From the NCBI RefSeq assembly GCF_038396675.1, contig NC_088922.1, forward strand, positions 64,471,501-64,535,500: DNA of 64,000 nucleotides, given 5' to 3'. Both the position numbers and the translations under genes were made by a program. This DNA is from Hydra vulgaris. Lineage: Eukaryota; Cnidaria; Hydrozoa; Anthoathecata; Hydridae. The notes beneath the pieces were generated by a model. That model saw nothing but the letters and a program-made list of their open reading frames with translations. It did not search any database and was not told where the DNA came from. Positions 1 through 32,600 of this stretch are shown piece by piece (the stretch's first letter is position 1; each line of letters begins with the position of its first letter).

Positions 1-716
1 TTTAAATTTCTTATTTTAATTTCATATTTTCTTATTTATATTTTCTTATTTTGGTTTTCTTATTTTAATTTATATTTTCGCATAACCCTATAACAAATTA
101 GGGTAAAGCGGGGCATATCGGGACAGTGGGGTATAGCGGGACAGTTATGTCTGAAGTCTTGTATCTCAGCTAAAAAAAATTTTTTTTTTTAAATTTTTTT
201 TTTGATAAAACATTTTAAATTATTGTGCTTTATTTTTTTTTTTTTGTTTTTTTATCTTTACAATGTTGTGATTCTATCCATATAACTGATACAAATTTAC
301 AATGTTTATAAAATATATAATGATAAGAGAAAAAATAAAATCTCACAACTTTATAGAATACAAAAAATATAACTGCAGGGTATCATTATTATTAAAAGAA
401 CGCGGGAAACTTGCAGAAGACCAGATGGTCTTGTCATCAAGAAACCGCTTGTACTAGTAATACTTTTTGTATTTTTGTTTTTACATGTTTCTAGTTTCAC
501 AAAATATAATGGTAGTTCCTTTTATATTGGATTCACATATAATAAAATGTAAGATAACAAATATTTTATAAATGCTAGATTTTGTACACATAAATATATG
601 GTTAGGCATAAATAAAGTTATTTTTGATTTAAATATTTTTTATATTAATATTTGTTATTGAAGTTTTTTGGGATTTTCGTTTCAACGTTAATTTTGGCTC
701 TAGTTTCAGTATTAGT

Positions 717-3454
717 TTAGTGTAAGTTCATATAATTGTTTATATTTAAAACGAACTTTTTTAGTAAGATTTTCAAACAATTTAGGTTATCTAATTTTGT
801 AATTATGGCATTTCCGGATATCAGTTTATTATAGAGATAGGGACCGCGATATGAAATTGTAAAACGCGATAGTTTTGTTTTTCTAAACGGTATATTAAAG
901 TTTCCTACTTCTCGAGTGTCATATCTATTTCTATTGCTTTTAAAGAAATCATTTGAGAAATGTGATGGGACAAACCCGAGTTTATATTTCAGCATAAACA
1001 ATAAGTTTTGATAAATGTTTATTCTATAGACGTTTAGTGCATTAAGGAGTTTTAACAAAGGTTCAGCATGAGTGAATTTGTCTTTTTTATAGACAATTCT
1101 AACGGCATGTTTTTGACGTCGATAAAGTGATTTCAAATTGGATTTATTGGTACTTGCTCATGCTATATTACCATATGTATAATAGGTCTGTATAAATGAG
1201 AAATAATGATGTTTTAGATTTTCTTGGGATAACATTGGTCTAGCTTTGTATAGCACGCCAATGTTTTTGATCGTTAATGTATATTAAGAACAATAAGGGA
1301 GCTAGAATGGAACCTTGGGGAACGCCACATTTAATCTTAAGCAATTTTGAACAGATATTTTCATCAGTATTAACGCATTGCTGTCTGTTTAGCAAAAAAA
1401 TTTTAAACCCGAGTAATGCAACATTTTTTACGCCATATTTTTCCAATTTTTTTAGCAGGTTAGCATGATCAACAGTATCGAATGCTTTCGATACATCTAT
1501 AAAGATTCCTAAAACAAATTCTTTATTAACAAATGAGTAGTTGATGCTATTTACAAGATCTACGATTGCATGTTCGGTTACATGTTGCTTTTGAAAGCCG
1601 AACTGTTTTGTATTTAAGATGCTGTTGTTTGTTATATATTGGTATAATTTATTATAAATTATTCGTTCGAGGAGTTTTGAGAATACAGGAAGAATTGAGA
1701 TTGGTCTATGATTGTTTAGTAAGTATGGTTCTCCAGTTTTATATATTGGTACAATTTTTGCAATTTTCAATTTCTCTGGAACGGTTCCTGTTGTAATTGA
1801 AGATTTAAATATTTCGAAGAGGGGTTTATTTATTATCGGAAAGATACTCATTACAATATTGCTACAAATTTCATCAATTCCTGGTGCTTTTTTGATTTTT
1901 AAAGAGTTTTTTTGCATTTTCGAGTTCTTCATAGCTTAATCCGTTGAACGTTAGTTCGCTATTTAGATCAGTAAAATAATTTTCAAAGGAGTTATTTGCG
2001 GTTTGAATTTTAGACGCCATGTTAGGGTCAATATTTGCGAAGAAATTGTTGAATTGTTCGGCAATAGAGTTCTTATCGTTGTGTTTTATTTCATTTATAA
2101 TAATTCTATCTGGTAAGCTGTTTGTTTTTATATACTTTTTTCCTATTATTTCTTTCATGATGTTCCATGTTTTTTTGGTATCTCCATTTGTTTTTTGAAG
2201 TAATTTAGAATAATAAACTTTTTTAGAATGTTTTCTGATTTTTTCGAAAAGATTTTTATATTGTTTATAAGTAGATAGGTTTTCTTCATTTCTGTTTTTC
2301 AAATATTTAACATATAGTCTTTGTTTAGTTTTTGAAGATTTTTTGATTCCGCTGGTGATCCATGGACAGCTCAAATGTTTTGCTTTTATTTCTTTTTCTT
2401 TGATTGGAAAATGATTATTATAGTGTTTTAGAAAAATATCTGTAAAAGTATTATATGCAGAGTTTGTGTTCCCAAGGTTACATTCTTGATACACTTTAAC
2501 CCAATCTACTGCCGATAGTGCGTCTTTAAAACATTTAATAGAATTTTTATTTATTTTTCTTTTATAAATTTTTTTTTTCGAGTTATTATTTATTTTTGTA
2601 TCATATTTTATTGTAAAGTAAATTGGAAAATGATCTGTTATATCAATTTTTATTATTCCTGCTTTTAAGGAGGTATCTAGAAATGAGTTTGTTAGTATGT
2701 TATCTATAGCAGAAATAGTATTCGAGGTTACCCGTGTGGGTTTATTAATAATTGGTAAAATACAATGTTGAAACATGTTATCAAAAAATAATTTAGTGAT
2801 CGGACACTCTTTGTATTTTAAACAATCTATGTTTAAGTCCCCGATACAGAACAACTTTTTTTGCTCTTTATTGATTTTAAGAAAAATTTCTTTTAGATAA
2901 TTAGAACATTTTTTAATATTACCTTCAGGTGGCCTATAACAGGTAGAGACTATAATATTTTTAAATTTGGAGTTGATGATCTCTATTGTAAAGACCTCAC
3001 TATCGGGGTTAGAAATGGAGTGATCTTTTCTCACTTTTATCACTTGATCATTCCGAACATTAGTTGCAATCCCTCCTCCTTTTTTGTATGCTTTCCTTTC
3101 AGAAGATAATAATTTATAATTTGGAATTTGAAAGTTAGAGTTATTTTGGATTGATTCACCAGAACACCATGTTTCTGTTAGGCAAATCATACTGAATGAA
3201 TAATTGCAATCAATTAGGAAATGTTTAAGTTTGTCAAAATTTTTATTTATGCTTCTTATATTTATGTGAATTACCGTAAAATTACTTTTATAAGCTTCAA
3301 GTTCAGTTTTGAAAGTTTCTGTTTCAAAATAACGAGAGTTAAAATTGTACTTTTGAAAAATTTGCGTATCAGCGTCATTGAGTATATTATTCGCGGTTTC
3401 AAAGACATTAAAGCGCATCGTTTCAAAATCTATTGTTTTATTTTTTATTGCCAT
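717..3454 (-). pseudogene. retrotransposon ORF2: APE endonuclease + reverse transcriptase, broken
   Basis: The first 526 residues (3454 to 1874) hold an APE-type endonuclease: HINIRSINKN, LTETWCS, GDLNID and ITDHFPI are the usual blocks. A frameshift near 1885 moves the frame to 1932-1240, which holds RT blocks APGIDEI, RPISILPVFSKLLERI, FIDVSKAFDTVDH and GVPQGSILAPLLFLIYIND. The protein then jumps near 1265 straight to the C-terminal region (KNIGVLYKARP-like, then the open frame 1136-717 with RRQKHAVRIVYKKDKFTHAEPLL). The stretch that should hold the F/YADD catalytic box is missing. The C-terminal part aligns by eye with the CR1-like copy at 28.2-28.9 kb. Confidence 0.75.
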
Positions 3455-3511
3455 TATTTTAGAATGTAAAATTTAGAACGCGTTTACTCAGTAAAACAAA
3501 AGTGTGTTGCG

Positions 3512-4234
3512 CTATTTTTTTAAATATCGTGTAAATATTTTATCGTATTTTAAAATGGCGTATTTACCTTCGCTTCTTAGTTTTTTAACTTCTTCCCAGA
3601 GCTTTCTTCGATGATATATTGTTTCTTGAGCGAAGTCTTCATTTATGTATAGGTCAGTTCCTTTAAGATACTTTACAGCATTGAGAATTTTGTTTTTGTC
3701 TTGGAAGTTTAAAAGTTTTATAACTAATGTTCTTGGTTTGTTGTCTTCAAATTGTCCGATACGATGAGCTCGTTCAACCACTACTTCGCTTTGTATTTTC
3801 AGTTTTGTTTTGAAAATTTCTTTAACAGCTTTTTCGATGGATTTTTTATATAATGAATTGATTTCTTTGTCGTAGTATTTCTTTATTTGTGATATTTTTT
3901 CCGAGATGTTATTTTCTTGAAAATTTAGGCTGTCTTTAATGTCACGTAGGTCTTTTTCTATATTTGATATTTTACATTTGTTGTTAATAATGTCATTCTC
4001 TAGCATGTCTAATCTATCTGTGATAATTTTGAGATTTGCACTGATAATTGAGGTAAATGATTTTTCCTGGTCTTTAAATAAGCGTTCCGTTTCTTTGAGA
4101 ATACTTTTTTTATGTTCTTCAAGCTTACTAGAAATCATTTTTTCGATGTTTTTCATCGTAATATCCATTTTTTTATGTAAAAACTTTTCGCTATTAAATA
4201 ACACGTCTTTCTTCCGCAAAAGCCAGAGTGCCAA
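3512..4234 (-). CDS. retrotransposon ORF1 protein (L1 ORF1p-like, coiled coil + RNA-binding domain)
   Basis: Open frame of 240 residues at the 5' end of the element. Residues of about 20-135 are rich in K, E, I and L in heptad-like spacing (coiled coil). The C-terminal half contains VERAHRIG followed by PRTLVIKLLNFQDKNKIL and a later YINEDF, which resembles the RRM-like and C-terminal domains of L1-type ORF1 proteins (Transposase_22). Such proteins bind element RNA as trimers. The frame is intact, unlike ORF2. It ends about 57 bases before the ORF2 start. Family assignment is by motif memory only. Confidence 0.65.
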   Translation of the reverse strand: MALWLLRKKDVLFNSEKFLHKKMDITMKNIEKMISSKLEEHKKSILKETERLFKDQEKSFTSIISANLKIITDRLDMLENDIINNKCKISNIEKDLRDIKDSLNFQENNISEKISQIKKYYDKEINSLYKKSIEKAVKEIFKTKLKIQSEVVVERAHRIGQFEDNKPRTLVIKLLNFQDKNKILNAVKYLKGTDLYINEDFAQETIYHRRKLWEEVKKLRSEGKYAILKYDKIFTRYLKK

Positions 4235-26109: not shown

Positions 26110-27840
26110 TTAAAACTGTCTCTACGAACTAATTTAGGGCTTTGAAAATTTATCTAAGATCAAACGAAAATTATATATAAATGACCTAAAAAACAAAGAG
26201 ACCTTTAAATGAAAAACTATACAAAGATTGCAAATATCTTTTTGTAAAAACTTAAAAAAGAATAACTACTCAAAATTATTCGAAAATGTTGAGAATAACT
26301 CTAAACGCACTTGGAAAATATTAGAGAAATTGGCGTAAAACAAAAACTTGTTTCCTTTCCGCAAGTGGTTAGAGTGAATAACAAAGATGTTTTTGAACCT
26401 AGATTAATGGCTCACGAGTTCAACTAATTCTTTATTGACATCGGCTCCAAACTGGCAAATATAATTCCTAATACCCAAGTTGTGTTCATTATCCTTTAAG
26501 TTATCGTTTTAATGGTTTCAAGTGTCATTCAAATCTATTAAAAAAAAAAAAAAAAGCTCCTGGAGCTGATGAAATAAACGGAAACAGTCTTAGAATGCTT
26601 TGAACAATTAAAAGATATTCTCTTTAAAGTTTTCAAAGCGTCAATACATCAGGGAGTTTTCCCTGATCAGTTAAAACTATCATATTCTACAAAAAAGGAG
26701 ACAGAACTAATATAGTAATCACCGACCTTTCTCTATTTTATTGATTTTTTTAAAAATTTAGGAATTAGGTACCATAGATACTTATTTTAAGGGAAAAATT
26801 TTTTTTATATAAAAATCAGTTTGCTTTTAAAAGAAATAGTTCTACTGAGCATGTAATCATCCATATTTCAGTGGTGTTCTAAAAAAATCAATTTTGGGTG
26901 TTTCATGTGGTGTTCCACAAGAATCAATTTTGGGCATTTCATGTGGTGTTCCACAAGAATAAATTTTGGCACCACTTCTTTTTTTAATCTTCATTAATTT
27001 GCATAAAGCTTCTAATCTTTTAAGTATTATGTTTGTGGATGATACTAATTTTTTTTTTTTTAGTCTAATAACAGTATTAAAAAACTCTTAATACTACGAA
27101 TGAAGAATTCAAAATATTTCTAGCTGATTTGAATGCAATAAACTTACCCTAAATATTAACAAGATAAAATGGATTTTTTTTCATTTGATAACTAAAAAAC
27201 GTTATTTACCCCCAGCTCTAATTGATATTTTCATTGACCAAATTGAAATTAAAAGAGGTTGCGTCACAAAACTTTTAGGTCTATTCCTTGATGAGAACAT
27301 CACATGGAAACAACATATTGATTATGTTGGTACTAAAGTTTCCAAAAATACTAAGTTTTATCCCAACTTTATTATGCATTTATTCATAGCTATATGAATT
27401 ATGCAAAAGTTTCTTGGCAAGCACAGAAAAATGTAAGTTACAATCTCTCTATCGTCATTAGGAACATGGAATATGTGTAACTAATTTTGCTGATCATTTT
27501 TCTCTAAACGACTTTTTTCTGAAATGGTAATACGAAATATTTACGAACTCAATATTTTCGATATTTTATGCTCTGTATATATATGTAAAAATATGTAAAA
27601 ATAATCTTTTTTCGTTTTTAATGATCTAATTTACCTTGAAATCTACCAATAAATACTCTCTGAGAAATACCAACCTTCTCTAAGAGCCTTTTTGTTAAAC
27701 AAAGTTTAACCAATTTTGCAGTGTTTATCGTGCACCCCATTTTTGGAATAAAAATGTTTTGTCCTATTATTTTAATTGTGATCTGCCTACTTCTTTGTAT
27801 CTTTTTTTATTGTTTTTTTTTTATTATTGCATTATAAATA
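26110..27840 (+). pseudogene. CR1-like retrotransposon relic
   Basis: Broken + strand remains of an ORF2 protein. In shifting frames one can read the endonuclease-RT linker (NKETFK, FENVENNSKRTWKILEKLA), a FNNFFxDIGSKLANIIPN-like block, APGADEIN, ESILGIS / CGVPQE, FVDDTNFF (the catalytic box, at about 27030) and the C-terminal LLGLFLDENITWKQHIDYVG. About 36 bases around GTGGTGTTCCACAAGAAT are tandemly duplicated at 26896-26965. Same family as the copies at 0.7-4.2 and 28.2-32.6 kb. Confidence 0.65.
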
Positions 27841-27886
27841 AGCATTTCGTTACAATATTTAAAATACAAATATATATAATAATAAA

Positions 27887-27890
<4 letters not shown>

Positions 27891-27977
<87 letters not shown>
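27891..27977. repeat. (TA)n microsatellite
   Basis: About 43 TA units immediately 3' of the CR1-like relic. Confidence 0.95.
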
Positions 27978-27979
<2 letters not shown>

Positions 27980-28149
27980 GGTCTTGTCGTCGTGTACTGC
28001 TAAGAAATGATCGTGTTAAAATTTATAAGATGTTTACAAGATAAAAAATAAGTTAACGAAGTAAGAAGCTTAAAATATTCCGTTACAAATACATGACACA
28101 TTATTATATATTACAGTTGTTAATGATGCATATATAATTTTTATAAATC

Positions 28150-28884
28150 AATTGTTAAATAGGGGGTAAAAAGGAAGATCACTAAAAAAAAAATCGAAAG
28201 TATATTGTTACATCTTCAATTGTAAAAATGAGTTCTTTAAGCTTTCGTTTAAAAGAAAAGTGGTTACTATAATGAATAAAATCCTTAGTAAAATTTTTAA
28301 AAACTATTTTATTCCATAAGAATGGTCCGCGATAATCAATACAAAATTTAAAAAGATTTGTTTGAAAAATGGGCTGCTTAATAAAATTATCATTCCGCAA
28401 AATATATTTATTTTTATCTTTCGATGAATACAAATTATGGAAAGAAATAGGGGATGAATTGGTTTTACATTTAAACATAAAACAAAGAATATTAAAAATG
28501 TTAAGTTCATATATATTAAAAACTTTCATTTCAAATAATAGAGGCTTGGCATGAGTATAACGGTCTTTAAAATATATGAGACGTGCTACATGCTTCTGCT
28601 GACAATAAAGAGGTTTAAGTTTAATTTTCTTTGCACTACCCCAAGCAATGTTTCCATAGTTTATGTGACAATGAATAAATGAGTGATATAATTGTACTAA
28701 AGTACGTTTATTCAAAACATTTTTTGTTTTGTACAATATTCCTATACTTTTTGAAATTTTACTTGATAAGTTTTTAATGTGACTTTTCCATGTAAGATTT
28801 TTATCTATACAAACACCTAGAAAGTTGGTTACTGTTACTTGTTTAATTTTTATATTGTCAATAATAAGATGAGGCATGTTAATT
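28150..28884 (-). pseudogene. CR1-like retrotransposon ORF2, C-terminal part (3' of the insertion)
   Basis: From the insertion site the frame continues NMPHLIIDNIKIKQV, then TNFLGVCIDKNLTWKSHI, GILYKTKNVLNKRTL, INYGNIAWGSA and QQKHVARLIYFKDRYTHAKP, the usual region after the RT domain of these elements. It stays open to the stop at 28182. The methionine at 28901 belongs to the inserted transposon, not to this gene. Its upstream half is at 31740-32600. Confidence 0.8.
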
Positions 28885-31739
28885 GAAGAGCAGTTTTCCA
28901 AAACTTGTTAAGTCCATTTTTGTAGTTTTGAGATATTTAGGTTTTTTTGTTTATGAAAAAACTAAAACTCACATGTAAATTTTTATAAGTTGAAAACATT
29001 CAAATTACTTACACTTCATTTATAATTAAGCTTTGGTAAATCTTTGTTTATTATAAGCCACTTTTTTAGCCCTTTAAAATGTGTTGATTTTTCCAAAACT
29101 GTGTAAGTCCATGTGACTTAACAAGTTTTGGTTGAACTATAAAATGTACTAGGTAAAAAACTCTTCTATAACTGTTGGTTGTTGTGTTGTAACATCTTTT
29201 AGTTTTACATAAAGTAAGTATTGTCTTTAAAAAATAACTGAACTTAGACTAAAGCCCCTAATGATAATCTTAATTGAAGATAATCACATTAAACTTTTTA
29301 TTTGTATTTATTTACAGTCATTTATTCTTCAAATGCAGTGGTTGAAAGCTTAATATGATTACAAAATACTTAACTTTAAACAACATTGTTACAGAATAAC
29401 ATTAATGACAACAATATGCAATAATTTAAATCTCCAATATATTATTTTTGGCTTTTTATTGAAAAATTTTCCAAAATACACTAAACAAGAACACTAACAG
29501 TTGCAATAAAATATAAAGTATCTACATGTAATAGTAGTTGACAAGACACACGTCTTAATAGTGAAGTGATAATATTATTATGTGGATTATGTCAAATGAA
29601 GCAAATTTAAATGATACAATGAACAGAAAATAAAAATACATTACATTTCAAAAAAATATAACAAAAAATATTGATAATAGAACATCAGTTATAGGAAACT
29701 TTTACAAAAAAGATTCAGTGATATCATCATAGAACTGAACTTCCTCTCCTTCTCCTTCAACATTCACTCCCAATACATTATTATAAAATGAAACTGCATT
29801 AGCTGGAATAGTAAAAAATGACATAAGTTTTCGCACATCATCAGCTTTAACTTTGTTTTCTGGGGTTAATTTAACAGCCTTTTCAAGCGCCTAAATTTTC
29901 TCTTACCCTTAGCCAAAACTGTTACCATTGTTGGTTCAGCATTGTAGGTTGTCTGAACAAACAGTGCAGTTTTAGTATAGGTTAACACTCGCTGTTCTCT
30001 CATTAAGAATTGTAGCTTTGATTTTAAAATATTTTTTGTTACCAACTGAAAATAAACCATTTCCCAGTTTATTCCAAATACGTGTAAAGTGCCAAATTCA
30101 GAAAAAATATCATAATATTCCTCTGGGGATAGAATATTTTCTCTTTTCCGAAGCATTTTCTCTATTCTTCCAAACACTCTATCTGGAGGCATATAGCTAT
30201 GCCCTCGAATAGGGAAAAAATGTTCAATTTTTGTAAAAACTTCAATTTTTTTAATGAAATTCATCAGAGTGCTCATTACAACAGAGTTTTTATTTTGCGA
30301 TGAGTAAGCATCTGAAAAAAAACGTATAATTTTAGGACTCACTTCATTTTGACTGCACTCATCTTCAATCTTATCTAAGTAGTTCAATAATGCAGAAGCT
30401 ACTTGATTGCTTCCGCGTCCACTTTGAGTCTCAAGCCATGTGTATATGTCCACATTTTGTTTGTCTTGTTTTGCACCCTGCCTTACAAATGTAAAACTTC
30501 ACCTACACTAAGCTTGGGAAGTTGTTGATTTTGCTGCATATCAAAGGAAAAAGTGATTGTATCAGGCTGAGTATTTCTTAACAGATCAAAAAACTTTGAA
30601 GCACGCAGTTTGTGGACTCGCAAGTCAGTTATAAGCTTTTGCTTAGCAGCTGGTGTGCTTGCACTCTTAATTTCCATTTTCGTTGTCTCACAAAAAGAGT
30701 AGACATCAGTTCTAGGATTTCCAAAGCCTAAGTTGAATTTGGAAATGCACACTCGAGTAAACTTTGATAACGAAGCTGCAGAACAACTAGTAATCGATCT
30801 AAATGATTTAGAACATACAGGCACTAGGTCACCTGCACTGTTGCGCACAGTGTAGTTAAGTATTTGCCGGCGTGTTTTAGTCTGCAATGCCTTACGATGT
30901 CTTGTTCTAGATGGCATTTTACTCGACACATGCCTTTGAATGAACTTGTCTTGCTCAATCTTTTCTCCACGTTGGTAAAATGCATCAAAAAATCCTAAAA
31001 ACAAAAGAAAATATAATTAAATATAATATAAATTATATTACAAATTTATTATATTAAATTTAAATAATAACATTAAAATATAAAACCATTTTTATAATAA
31101 ACAATAGTACTTTATTAAAAACTAATAAAATATAGCCTATATTAATAATAAAATATATAGATTTAATCCTCAAAACAAAAAGTTATTTTTTTCAATAATA
31201 ACTAGACTCGATTATATTACTATAACTATAACTATTAGACTACTGTCTAATAGTAGATCTACTAATATTAGAAGAGACCAACCTTGTAAATCTTTCAAAA
31301 CTAGGTCACCAGCCCTACACTGGCCATTACGATGTTGGCAGCTTAGTATTGGCATTTTATCGATCTTTTTATATTTTGTACTCTTATCTTTTGTTTTCTG
31401 CCATTCTTTAATTCTTTTTCGTCCTCTACCGGGTGTTACTGGGGAAGCGAATTCATCAAGGAGCTCCGATACATCTACATTGTCGTTCGACACCATTGCA
31501 ACAAAATGCTTTCACTGCGCATGCGCATGGACCTAACGAGTTTTGGAAAGAATTTGTATCATGACTTACCAAGTTTTGGAAAAATGTCAATATTTTGTAC
31601 TTACTTTATATTGCCATATAACAAGTTTTGCATGAAACGGTTTTATTCATTAAATAGACATCAGAGAGAATTTCCAGAAAAATGAGTTATCTCATTTTTT
31701 TCATTTTTTGACTGGACCAGTTTTGGAAAACTGCTCTTC
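28885..31739 (-). mobile_element. DNA transposon with DUF7869-like DDE gene, AATT target duplication
   Basis: The first 21 bases (GAAGAGCAGTTTTCCAAAAC and one more) are repeated exactly in inverted orientation at the other end, with looser matching for about 10 more. AATT flanks both ends (28881-28884, 31740-31743). Removal of the element plus one AATT makes the CR1-like frame continuous (HKLP-I-NMPHL), so AATT is a true target duplication. Words of the type CCAAAACTTGTTAAGTC recur in both orientations in the subterminal zones (about 28898, 29094, 29119, 31540, 31570, 31620). Four-base duplications are known for the Sola superfamily; I cannot confirm membership. Confidence 0.88.
29702..31496 (-). 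pseudogene. DUF7869-like DDE transposase gene, spliced, lightly damaged
   Basis: Exon 1 is 31496-31283 (MVSNDNVDVSELLDEFASPV to KDLQ), donor CAAG/GTTGGT. Exon 2 starts at 30994 after TTTGTTTTTAG and is in the same phase (Q-G-FFDAFYQRG). It reads VPVCSKSF, a block common before the catalytic domain, and TFSFDMQQNQQLPKLSVGEV with the first Asp. A frameshift at about 30480 follows. The next frame gives YTWLETQSGRGSNQVASALL, IIRFFSDAYSSQNKN (second Asp; usual form SDxCxGQNKN) and RGHSYMPPDRVFGRIEK. A second frameshift near 29880 leads to a tail ending at 29702. The region between VCSKSF and the first Asp is shorter than in insect homologues as I recall them. Family named from memory. Confidence 0.7.
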
Positions 31740-32600
31740 AATTGGCAGTTTATGTTTTTTGATAAGAGAATGGAAAAGAACCCATTTAGTTTTATCAATG
31801 TTAAGAGATAATTTGTTAGTCTTAAACCAGTCAGATATTTTGATTAACTCGATGTTCAAGCAACTAAAAAAGAAGGAATGCTTTTGTGTGACGTAAATAA
31901 ATTGGTGTCATCAACAAAAATAATTGTTATTAAATCCGAGGCTTTGTATAAATCATTAATATAAATAAGGAAAAGAAGAGGTCCTAACATGGATCCTAGA
32001 GGTAATATCTACATGTAATATTTAACAAATTTGATGATAATGTTTCATTGGCGTAAACAAATTGTTTGCGATTAGTTAAATAACATTTTAACAATTTTAA
32101 AACATTGTCTGTTATACCACAACATTTTAATTTTTTAGCAATAATTTTATGATTAATGGTATCAAACTCTTTCGCTAAATCAATAAATACTCCCCATGTG
32201 AATTTAGAATTATTAAATGAGTCTGATATACTTCTTGTAAGCTGAATAATTGCATGCTCTGTTGAATTTTTTTTTTTAAATCCATATTGCATGTTATATA
32301 ATAATTTGTTTGAAAGAAGGTGATTGTATATTCTGTTGTACAAAATTCTTTCAAAAATTTTAGAAAAAACAGAGAGGATAGAAACTGGACGATAGTGTTT
32401 AACATTAGTTTTTTCTCCTTCTTTAAAAATAGGAATAATTTTTGCTATTTTTAAATCATCAGGAAAAACTCCCTGATTAATAGAGCATTTAAAAATTTGG
32501 AAAAGTATGTCTTTTAAAACGTCAAAACAGTTTATAATAACATTCCCATTGACATCATCTGGACCAACTGCTTTATTTTTTAAAATTAGGCTGAAAAATC
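31740..32600 (-). pseudogene. CR1-like retrotransposon ORF2, RT part (5' of the insertion)
   Basis: Read on the minus strand in slightly shifting frames: AVGPDDVNGNVI, RPVSILSVFSKIFERILYNR, LYNMQYGFKKKNSTEHAI, FIDLAKEFDTINHKI, then (after a frameshift near 32005) GSMLGPLLFLIYINDLYKAS and a IIFVDDTN-like catalytic box. It runs up to the site of the AATT insertion and continues at 28884. The copy is 5'-truncated near 32600, with no endonuclease, as is usual for this group. Confidence 0.75.

Follow-up and report, generated by a model that had tools for sequence, protein, structure and literature searches.

Sola is a transposon superfamily whose founding paper is reportedly that of Bao et al. 2009, and Repbase contains Sola families from Hydra. 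According to the excerpted description in PMC10741241, Sola elements encode a DDD transposase, create 4-bp target duplications, are mostly 2-9 kb long, carry terminal inverted repeats (TIRs) of 11 to 1124 bp, and are found in both bacteria and metazoans. In an excerpt from a second source, Sola-2 appears in a list of DNA elements that are enriched in AEP, Hydra vulgaris (PMC12220107). Here we describe a 2855-bp element located at 28885-31739 of the window, a term that refers throughout to the whole 64,000-nucleotide stretch of Hydra vulgaris DNA under analysis. The element belongs to a group of families, labelled F1-F5 in this report (F1 being the family of the window element), which resemble Sola as it is characterized in those excerpts. 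DUF7869 proteins contain conserved acids of the DDD type as a sequence motif; 4-bp duplications are matched in 27/28 copies of F1, 6/6 of F2 and 4/4 of F5, with ATAT/AAAT flanking a bacterial element; TIRs are at least 11 bp (21 bp here); lengths of ~2.8-3.6 kb lie within the 2-9 kb range; and the distribution includes animal elements as well as one bacterial case. By comparison with the published description, the element is most likely a member of the Sola superfamily, whichever of Sola1, Sola2 and Sola3 it may belong to. More specifically, we favor, at a probability of roughly 0.85, a cut-and-paste DDD transposon, most likely of the Sola kind, for which PF25273 (DUF7869) would supply the catalytic domain.

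It is also conceivable, albeit unlikely, that these elements constitute a superfamily apart from Sola1/2/3, the resemblance being confined to the DDD triad and a 4-bp duplication. The likeness to Sola is drawn from descriptions rather than from TIR or protein sequences, and within the literature searched there was no mention of DUF7869 or PF25273. On the other hand, the Sola traits given in the excerpted description (a DDD transposase, duplications of 4 bp, lengths mostly of 2-9 kb, TIRs that vary, occurrence in bacteria and metazoans) all fit (PMC10741241), and the excerpt of the second source names Sola-2 as one of the DNA elements showing enrichment in a Hydra genome (PMC12220107). A search of the same literature for a new superfamily with AATT gave no result. 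Other known transposons also come into comparison. The piggyBac and Kolobok elements likewise have TIRs and a 4-bp target composed only of A and T, which is TTAA in the excerpts consulted (PMC5199201; PMC9587614), whereas the targets here are AATT, ATAT, ATTT and AAAT, and 0/28 F1 copies are flanked by TTAA. None of the piggyBac or Kolobok Pfam families was among the Pfam matches listed. The C/DxxH group, comprising hAT, P, MuDR, Kolobok and Dada, would be similar in its expected RNase H-type transposases.

The window element and its insertion site

The outer boundaries of the element are formed by exact 21-bp TIRs, located at 28885-28905 on the forward strand and at 31719-31739 on the reverse strand, which have the sequence GAAGAGCAGTTTTCCAAAACT. 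They were recognized by repeat comparison together with a genome pattern search, in which the TIR pattern yielded 55 matches at no more than 1 mismatch vs 0 for a reversed-pattern control. Directly outside of the TIRs are the two copies of the target duplication, AATT at 28881-28884 and at 31740-31743, as previously described in the earlier note. Near both ends, the motif TTTTCCAAAACTTGTTAAGTCC recurs with up to 6 mismatches: three left copies occur within 28894-29138, the first of which overlaps the TIR and one of which is inverted, and three right copies occur within 31529-31733, the outermost of which overlaps the TIR. It is possible that these motif copies are candidate transposase-binding sites.

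The window copy is inserted into another repeat. Once the element is removed along with one AATT, a 288-aa open frame spans the site, so the host frame that was said to cross the insertion site after excision does exist and runs uninterrupted for 288 codons. An RVT_1 reverse-transcriptase ORF adjoins the restored host frame (E 8.1e-16), and the host repeat may be CR1-like, as it was labelled in the earlier note. The empty sites that had been proposed as a further check were also found. When the joined flanks were used as a query, 40/40 of the places scored (from 3151 first-look candidates) matched across the junction with 97% identity, 39 of them beginning at query base 1 and the remaining one at base 7. 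Of these loci, six were read letter by letter, and 6/6 were gap-free over 120 nt with a single AATT. These empty sites are direct evidence of an insertion accompanied by a 4-bp duplication. Elsewhere in the vicinity, a TA-type simple repeat is present at 27807-28022 of the window and is visible as IYIY frames.

The gene of the window copy is predicted to lie on the reverse strand. Splice prediction and the ORF list suggest a first exon at 31283-31496, having its start codon at 31496-31494, followed by a putative GT..AG intron at 30995-31282 (288 nt in the window copy). The predicted second exon at 29702-30994, which is supported by ORFs, Pfam and the alignment of copies, ends with a stop codon at 29704-29702 and encodes the DUF7869 portion. 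PF25273 matched the window ORF with an E-value of 1.4e-9 and 38.2 bits, above the curated cut-off of 26 bits, as the earlier assignment of the gene to DUF7869 would predict, and no other family exceeded its cut-off in either this ORF or the copy L012. Compared with 11 of the 21 other long copies fetched, the window copy is missing 246, 31, 12, 9, 9 and 4 nt, counting losses of at least 3 nt that are absent from at least 9 of the 11 comparison copies. The reading frame of exon 2 is shifted due to the 31-nt loss. Consequently, the description of this transposon as complete holds for its ends but not for its gene, which is broken by the 246- and 31-nt losses. We regard the window element as a DNA transposon copy that has undergone internal deletion and is non-autonomous.

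Copies of the element in the Hydra genome

The genome searched comprises 911.5 Mb in 15 contigs, and a DNA search with the element returned 90 matches within it. We fetched 33 F1 places, of which 22 hold long copies (the window copy included) and 11 hold short derivatives. For 28/33 it was possible to read both ends, the other five being L012, L018, L024, L027 and L038; the readable set includes 18 of the 22 long copies as well as 10 short forms of 189-247 bp, which retain both ends without the gene. Identical 4-bp flanks are present in 27/28 of these copies (25 with AATT, one with ATTT and one with ATAT), while the chance of equal 4-mers expected from the window composition is 0.008. The sole unequal copy is L037, with GCTT/AATT. 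Leaving the window copy aside, 24/27 have AATT on both sides, two have another matched 4-mer and one is unequal, which agrees with the prediction that other copies of the ends would be flanked by AATT. Long copies are mostly ~3.1 kb and code for one DUF7869 protein, and pieces of the gene were present in 22/22 of them in a protein search (80 of 2613 candidates scored). The proposed tie between DUF7869 and a mobile element therefore withstood the test that had been set for it, as matched flanks occur in other copies and the gene resides inside the ends. Among 12 copies (the window copy and 11 others), mean pairwise identity is 96.9% at aligned bases. Exon 2 is open in some of the others, extending for 542 codons in L012, where PF25273 scores 45.4 bits, and for 531 codons in L016.

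Since AATT is palindromic and flanks 25/28 copies, one might suppose that it belongs to the element ends rather than to the target duplication. We reject this reading as having almost no chance of being correct. Copies flanked by ATTT/ATTT and ATAT/ATAT exist, and therefore AATT is the target, not the element; the 6 empty sites read each retain one AATT; and two further families, F2 and F5, show the matched non-palindromic 4-mers ATTT and AAAT. What the F1 copies exhibit is a target duplication with a preference for AATT. Two copies have unusual features of their own. L010, flanked by ATTT/ATTT, has 5199 bp between its ends, ~2 kb above most long copies, and given this extra length another element may be nested inside it. 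L017 is located at the center of a perfect palindrome, TCAATGCC AATT GGCATTGA, at positions about 322-334 and 3498-3510.

Other DUF7869 families and a bacterial relative

The DUF7869 profile produced 865 first-look candidates in the Hydra genome, of which 150 were scored and 150/150 matched, and 0/14 control genomes were positive. PF25273 scores reach 75 bits for F2, 72.9 for F3 and 52 for F4, and the F5 protein is 36-37% identical to that of F1. The association of gene and ends was read in three Hydra families, F1, F2 and F5. In F5, which is ~2.8 kb long (one copy, by coordinate subtraction), the TIR begins GAAGAGCTTATTTTCAAAAC and the far end is its near-complement; GAAGAGC and TTTTCAAAAC or TTTTCCAAAAC are common to the F5 and F1 ends. 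Flanks are matched in 4/4 F5 copies fetched, one with ATTT and three with ATAT, although two of the copies (L085 and L087) sit in TA runs, where an ATAT match is weak evidence. In F2, with a length of ~3.6 kb (likewise one copy, by coordinate subtraction), the TIR is GAGGC[A/G]CCTCACAGGA, and the element starts with GAGGCACCTCACAGGATAAGG and ends with the inverse of GAGGCGCCTCACAGGA. The F2 left-end pattern has 49 genome matches at no more than 2 mismatches vs 0 for the reversed control. Seven far ends of F2 were fetched and six could be paired with near ends; 4-mers are matched in 6/6 of the readable cases (ATAT four times, ATTT and AAAT once each), one of the ATAT pairs, L059/L079, being located in a TA run. 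The gene is accordingly joined to TIR ends and a 4-bp duplication in three Hydra families, and the link between DUF7869 and a mobile element gains support from the repetition of the same anatomy in F2 and F5. At F3 loci (L049, L065 and L069), the motif TGTGACCCATCTGACCAAAACCAGT has 207 genome matches at no more than 3 mismatches vs 0 for the reversed control, and may be either a subterminal repeat or an end that has short derivatives. Some TGTGACCCATCTGACCAAAACCAGT matches are near each other in opposite orientation.

A scan of bacterial and archaeal contigs recovered 21 stretches with the pattern, one of which codes for a relative. This stretch, L089, is a 3889-bp contig labelled as a Nitrospirales MAG. 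Its DUF7869 frame is uninterrupted over 661 aa, scores 52.8 bits with PF25273 (above the cut-off), and is 42% identical to Hydra F3 over 231 aligned residues. The gene lies in an element at 201-3739, between inverted repeats starting GAGGCGCC and GAGGAGCC, which are alike at 28/31 bases as counted by eye and closely resemble the ends of the Hydra family F2; the 4-bp flanks differ, reading ATAT vs AAAT. The final portion of the gene is occupied, at 2281-3621, by an insertion sequence of the ISL3 type (PF01610, E 1.8e-61), which has an 8-bp insertion duplication, CCCCATGT. Joining the ISL3 flanks at offset 8 lets the L089 frame run on into DLICPK, which is also found in the F2 proteins L043 and L063. 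That the gene carries an ISL3 element favors a bacterial host for L089 over eukaryotic contamination. Nonetheless, it is a single case: DUF7869 occurs in 1/395 genomes searched of its phylum, namely the genome of L089 itself. Relatives were absent from viral contigs (queries A2 and L089), phages (query P0001) and plasmids (query L089).

The DUF7869 protein and its proposed role

In an alignment of one sequence per family (L089, F1, F2, F3 and F5, five sequences in all), only three acidic residues are invariant, and all three are aspartates: the D in FD, the D in DxCxxQNKN and the D in GHxxxxxDxxFG. In the window copy, their codons are found on the reverse strand at 30540-30542 (FSFDMQ), 30310-30312 (SDAYSSQN) and 30181-30183 (HSYMPPD). 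Column 569 is also acidic in all five sequences, as D or E, and the partial sixth sequence, from F4, carries the last two invariant aspartates. The earlier suggestion that D, D and E/D residues would be retained is thereby borne out by a DDD triad at the level of a sequence motif, and these residues would presumably be the ones that perform catalysis. Solved structures compared with a profile of the five family sequences gave nothing at E <=10, and the NCBIfam and PHROGs searches gave nothing better than E 0.04. The phmmer matches of the 210-aa window ORF to Bcs3 (E 1.2e-5) and to gamma-tubulin complex chains (E 0.012) were judged to be spurious, because the five-sequence profile matched nothing at E <=10.

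Presumably, the DUF7869 protein, most likely a DDD transposase, would bind the TIRs and subterminal repeats and excise the element, which would then be joined to AT-rich sites cut with a 4-bp stagger, and repair of these cuts would yield the 4-bp duplication. Catalysis by the aspartates, an RNase H fold, binding of the ends, and cut-and-paste rather than copy-out transposition are all features that we infer for this system. An alternative scenario, which we consider highly improbable, is that the elements carry DUF7869 as a passenger or accessory protein and are moved by another transposase. It would be compatible with the fact that the function of DUF7869 is proposed here from sequence, and the single-sequence fold model of the L089 protein, with a mean pLDDT of 33.8, was discarded. 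However, the largest other frames inside L016 and L086, for which both strands were listed, are just 146 and 118 aa (the frames of L012 were listed on the gene strand), the gene is present in three families having different ends but equal duplication length, and the three invariant acidic residues are all aspartates.

Regarding the history of the family, a more tentative proposal, and one we consider less likely than not, is that DUF7869 constitutes an old transposase lineage of bacteria and animals whose ends are recognizable across domains, being either its own superfamily or a branch of Sola that has yet to be linked to PF25273. The end sequence in question begins GA[AG]G, with GAGGC[A/G]CC or GAGGAGCC at the ends of the bacterial element and of one Hydra family. 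If this proposal is true, uncharacterized DUF7869 genes of animals would be live, dead or domesticated transposases. The L089 element provides a compact system from which biochemistry could start, and a Pfam domain of unknown function now has a proposed function, together with defined ends and a target rule. If, as the earlier note states, insects and cnidarians commonly have such genes and these are listed as uncharacterized, each should be examined as a possible transposon gene or domesticated transposase.
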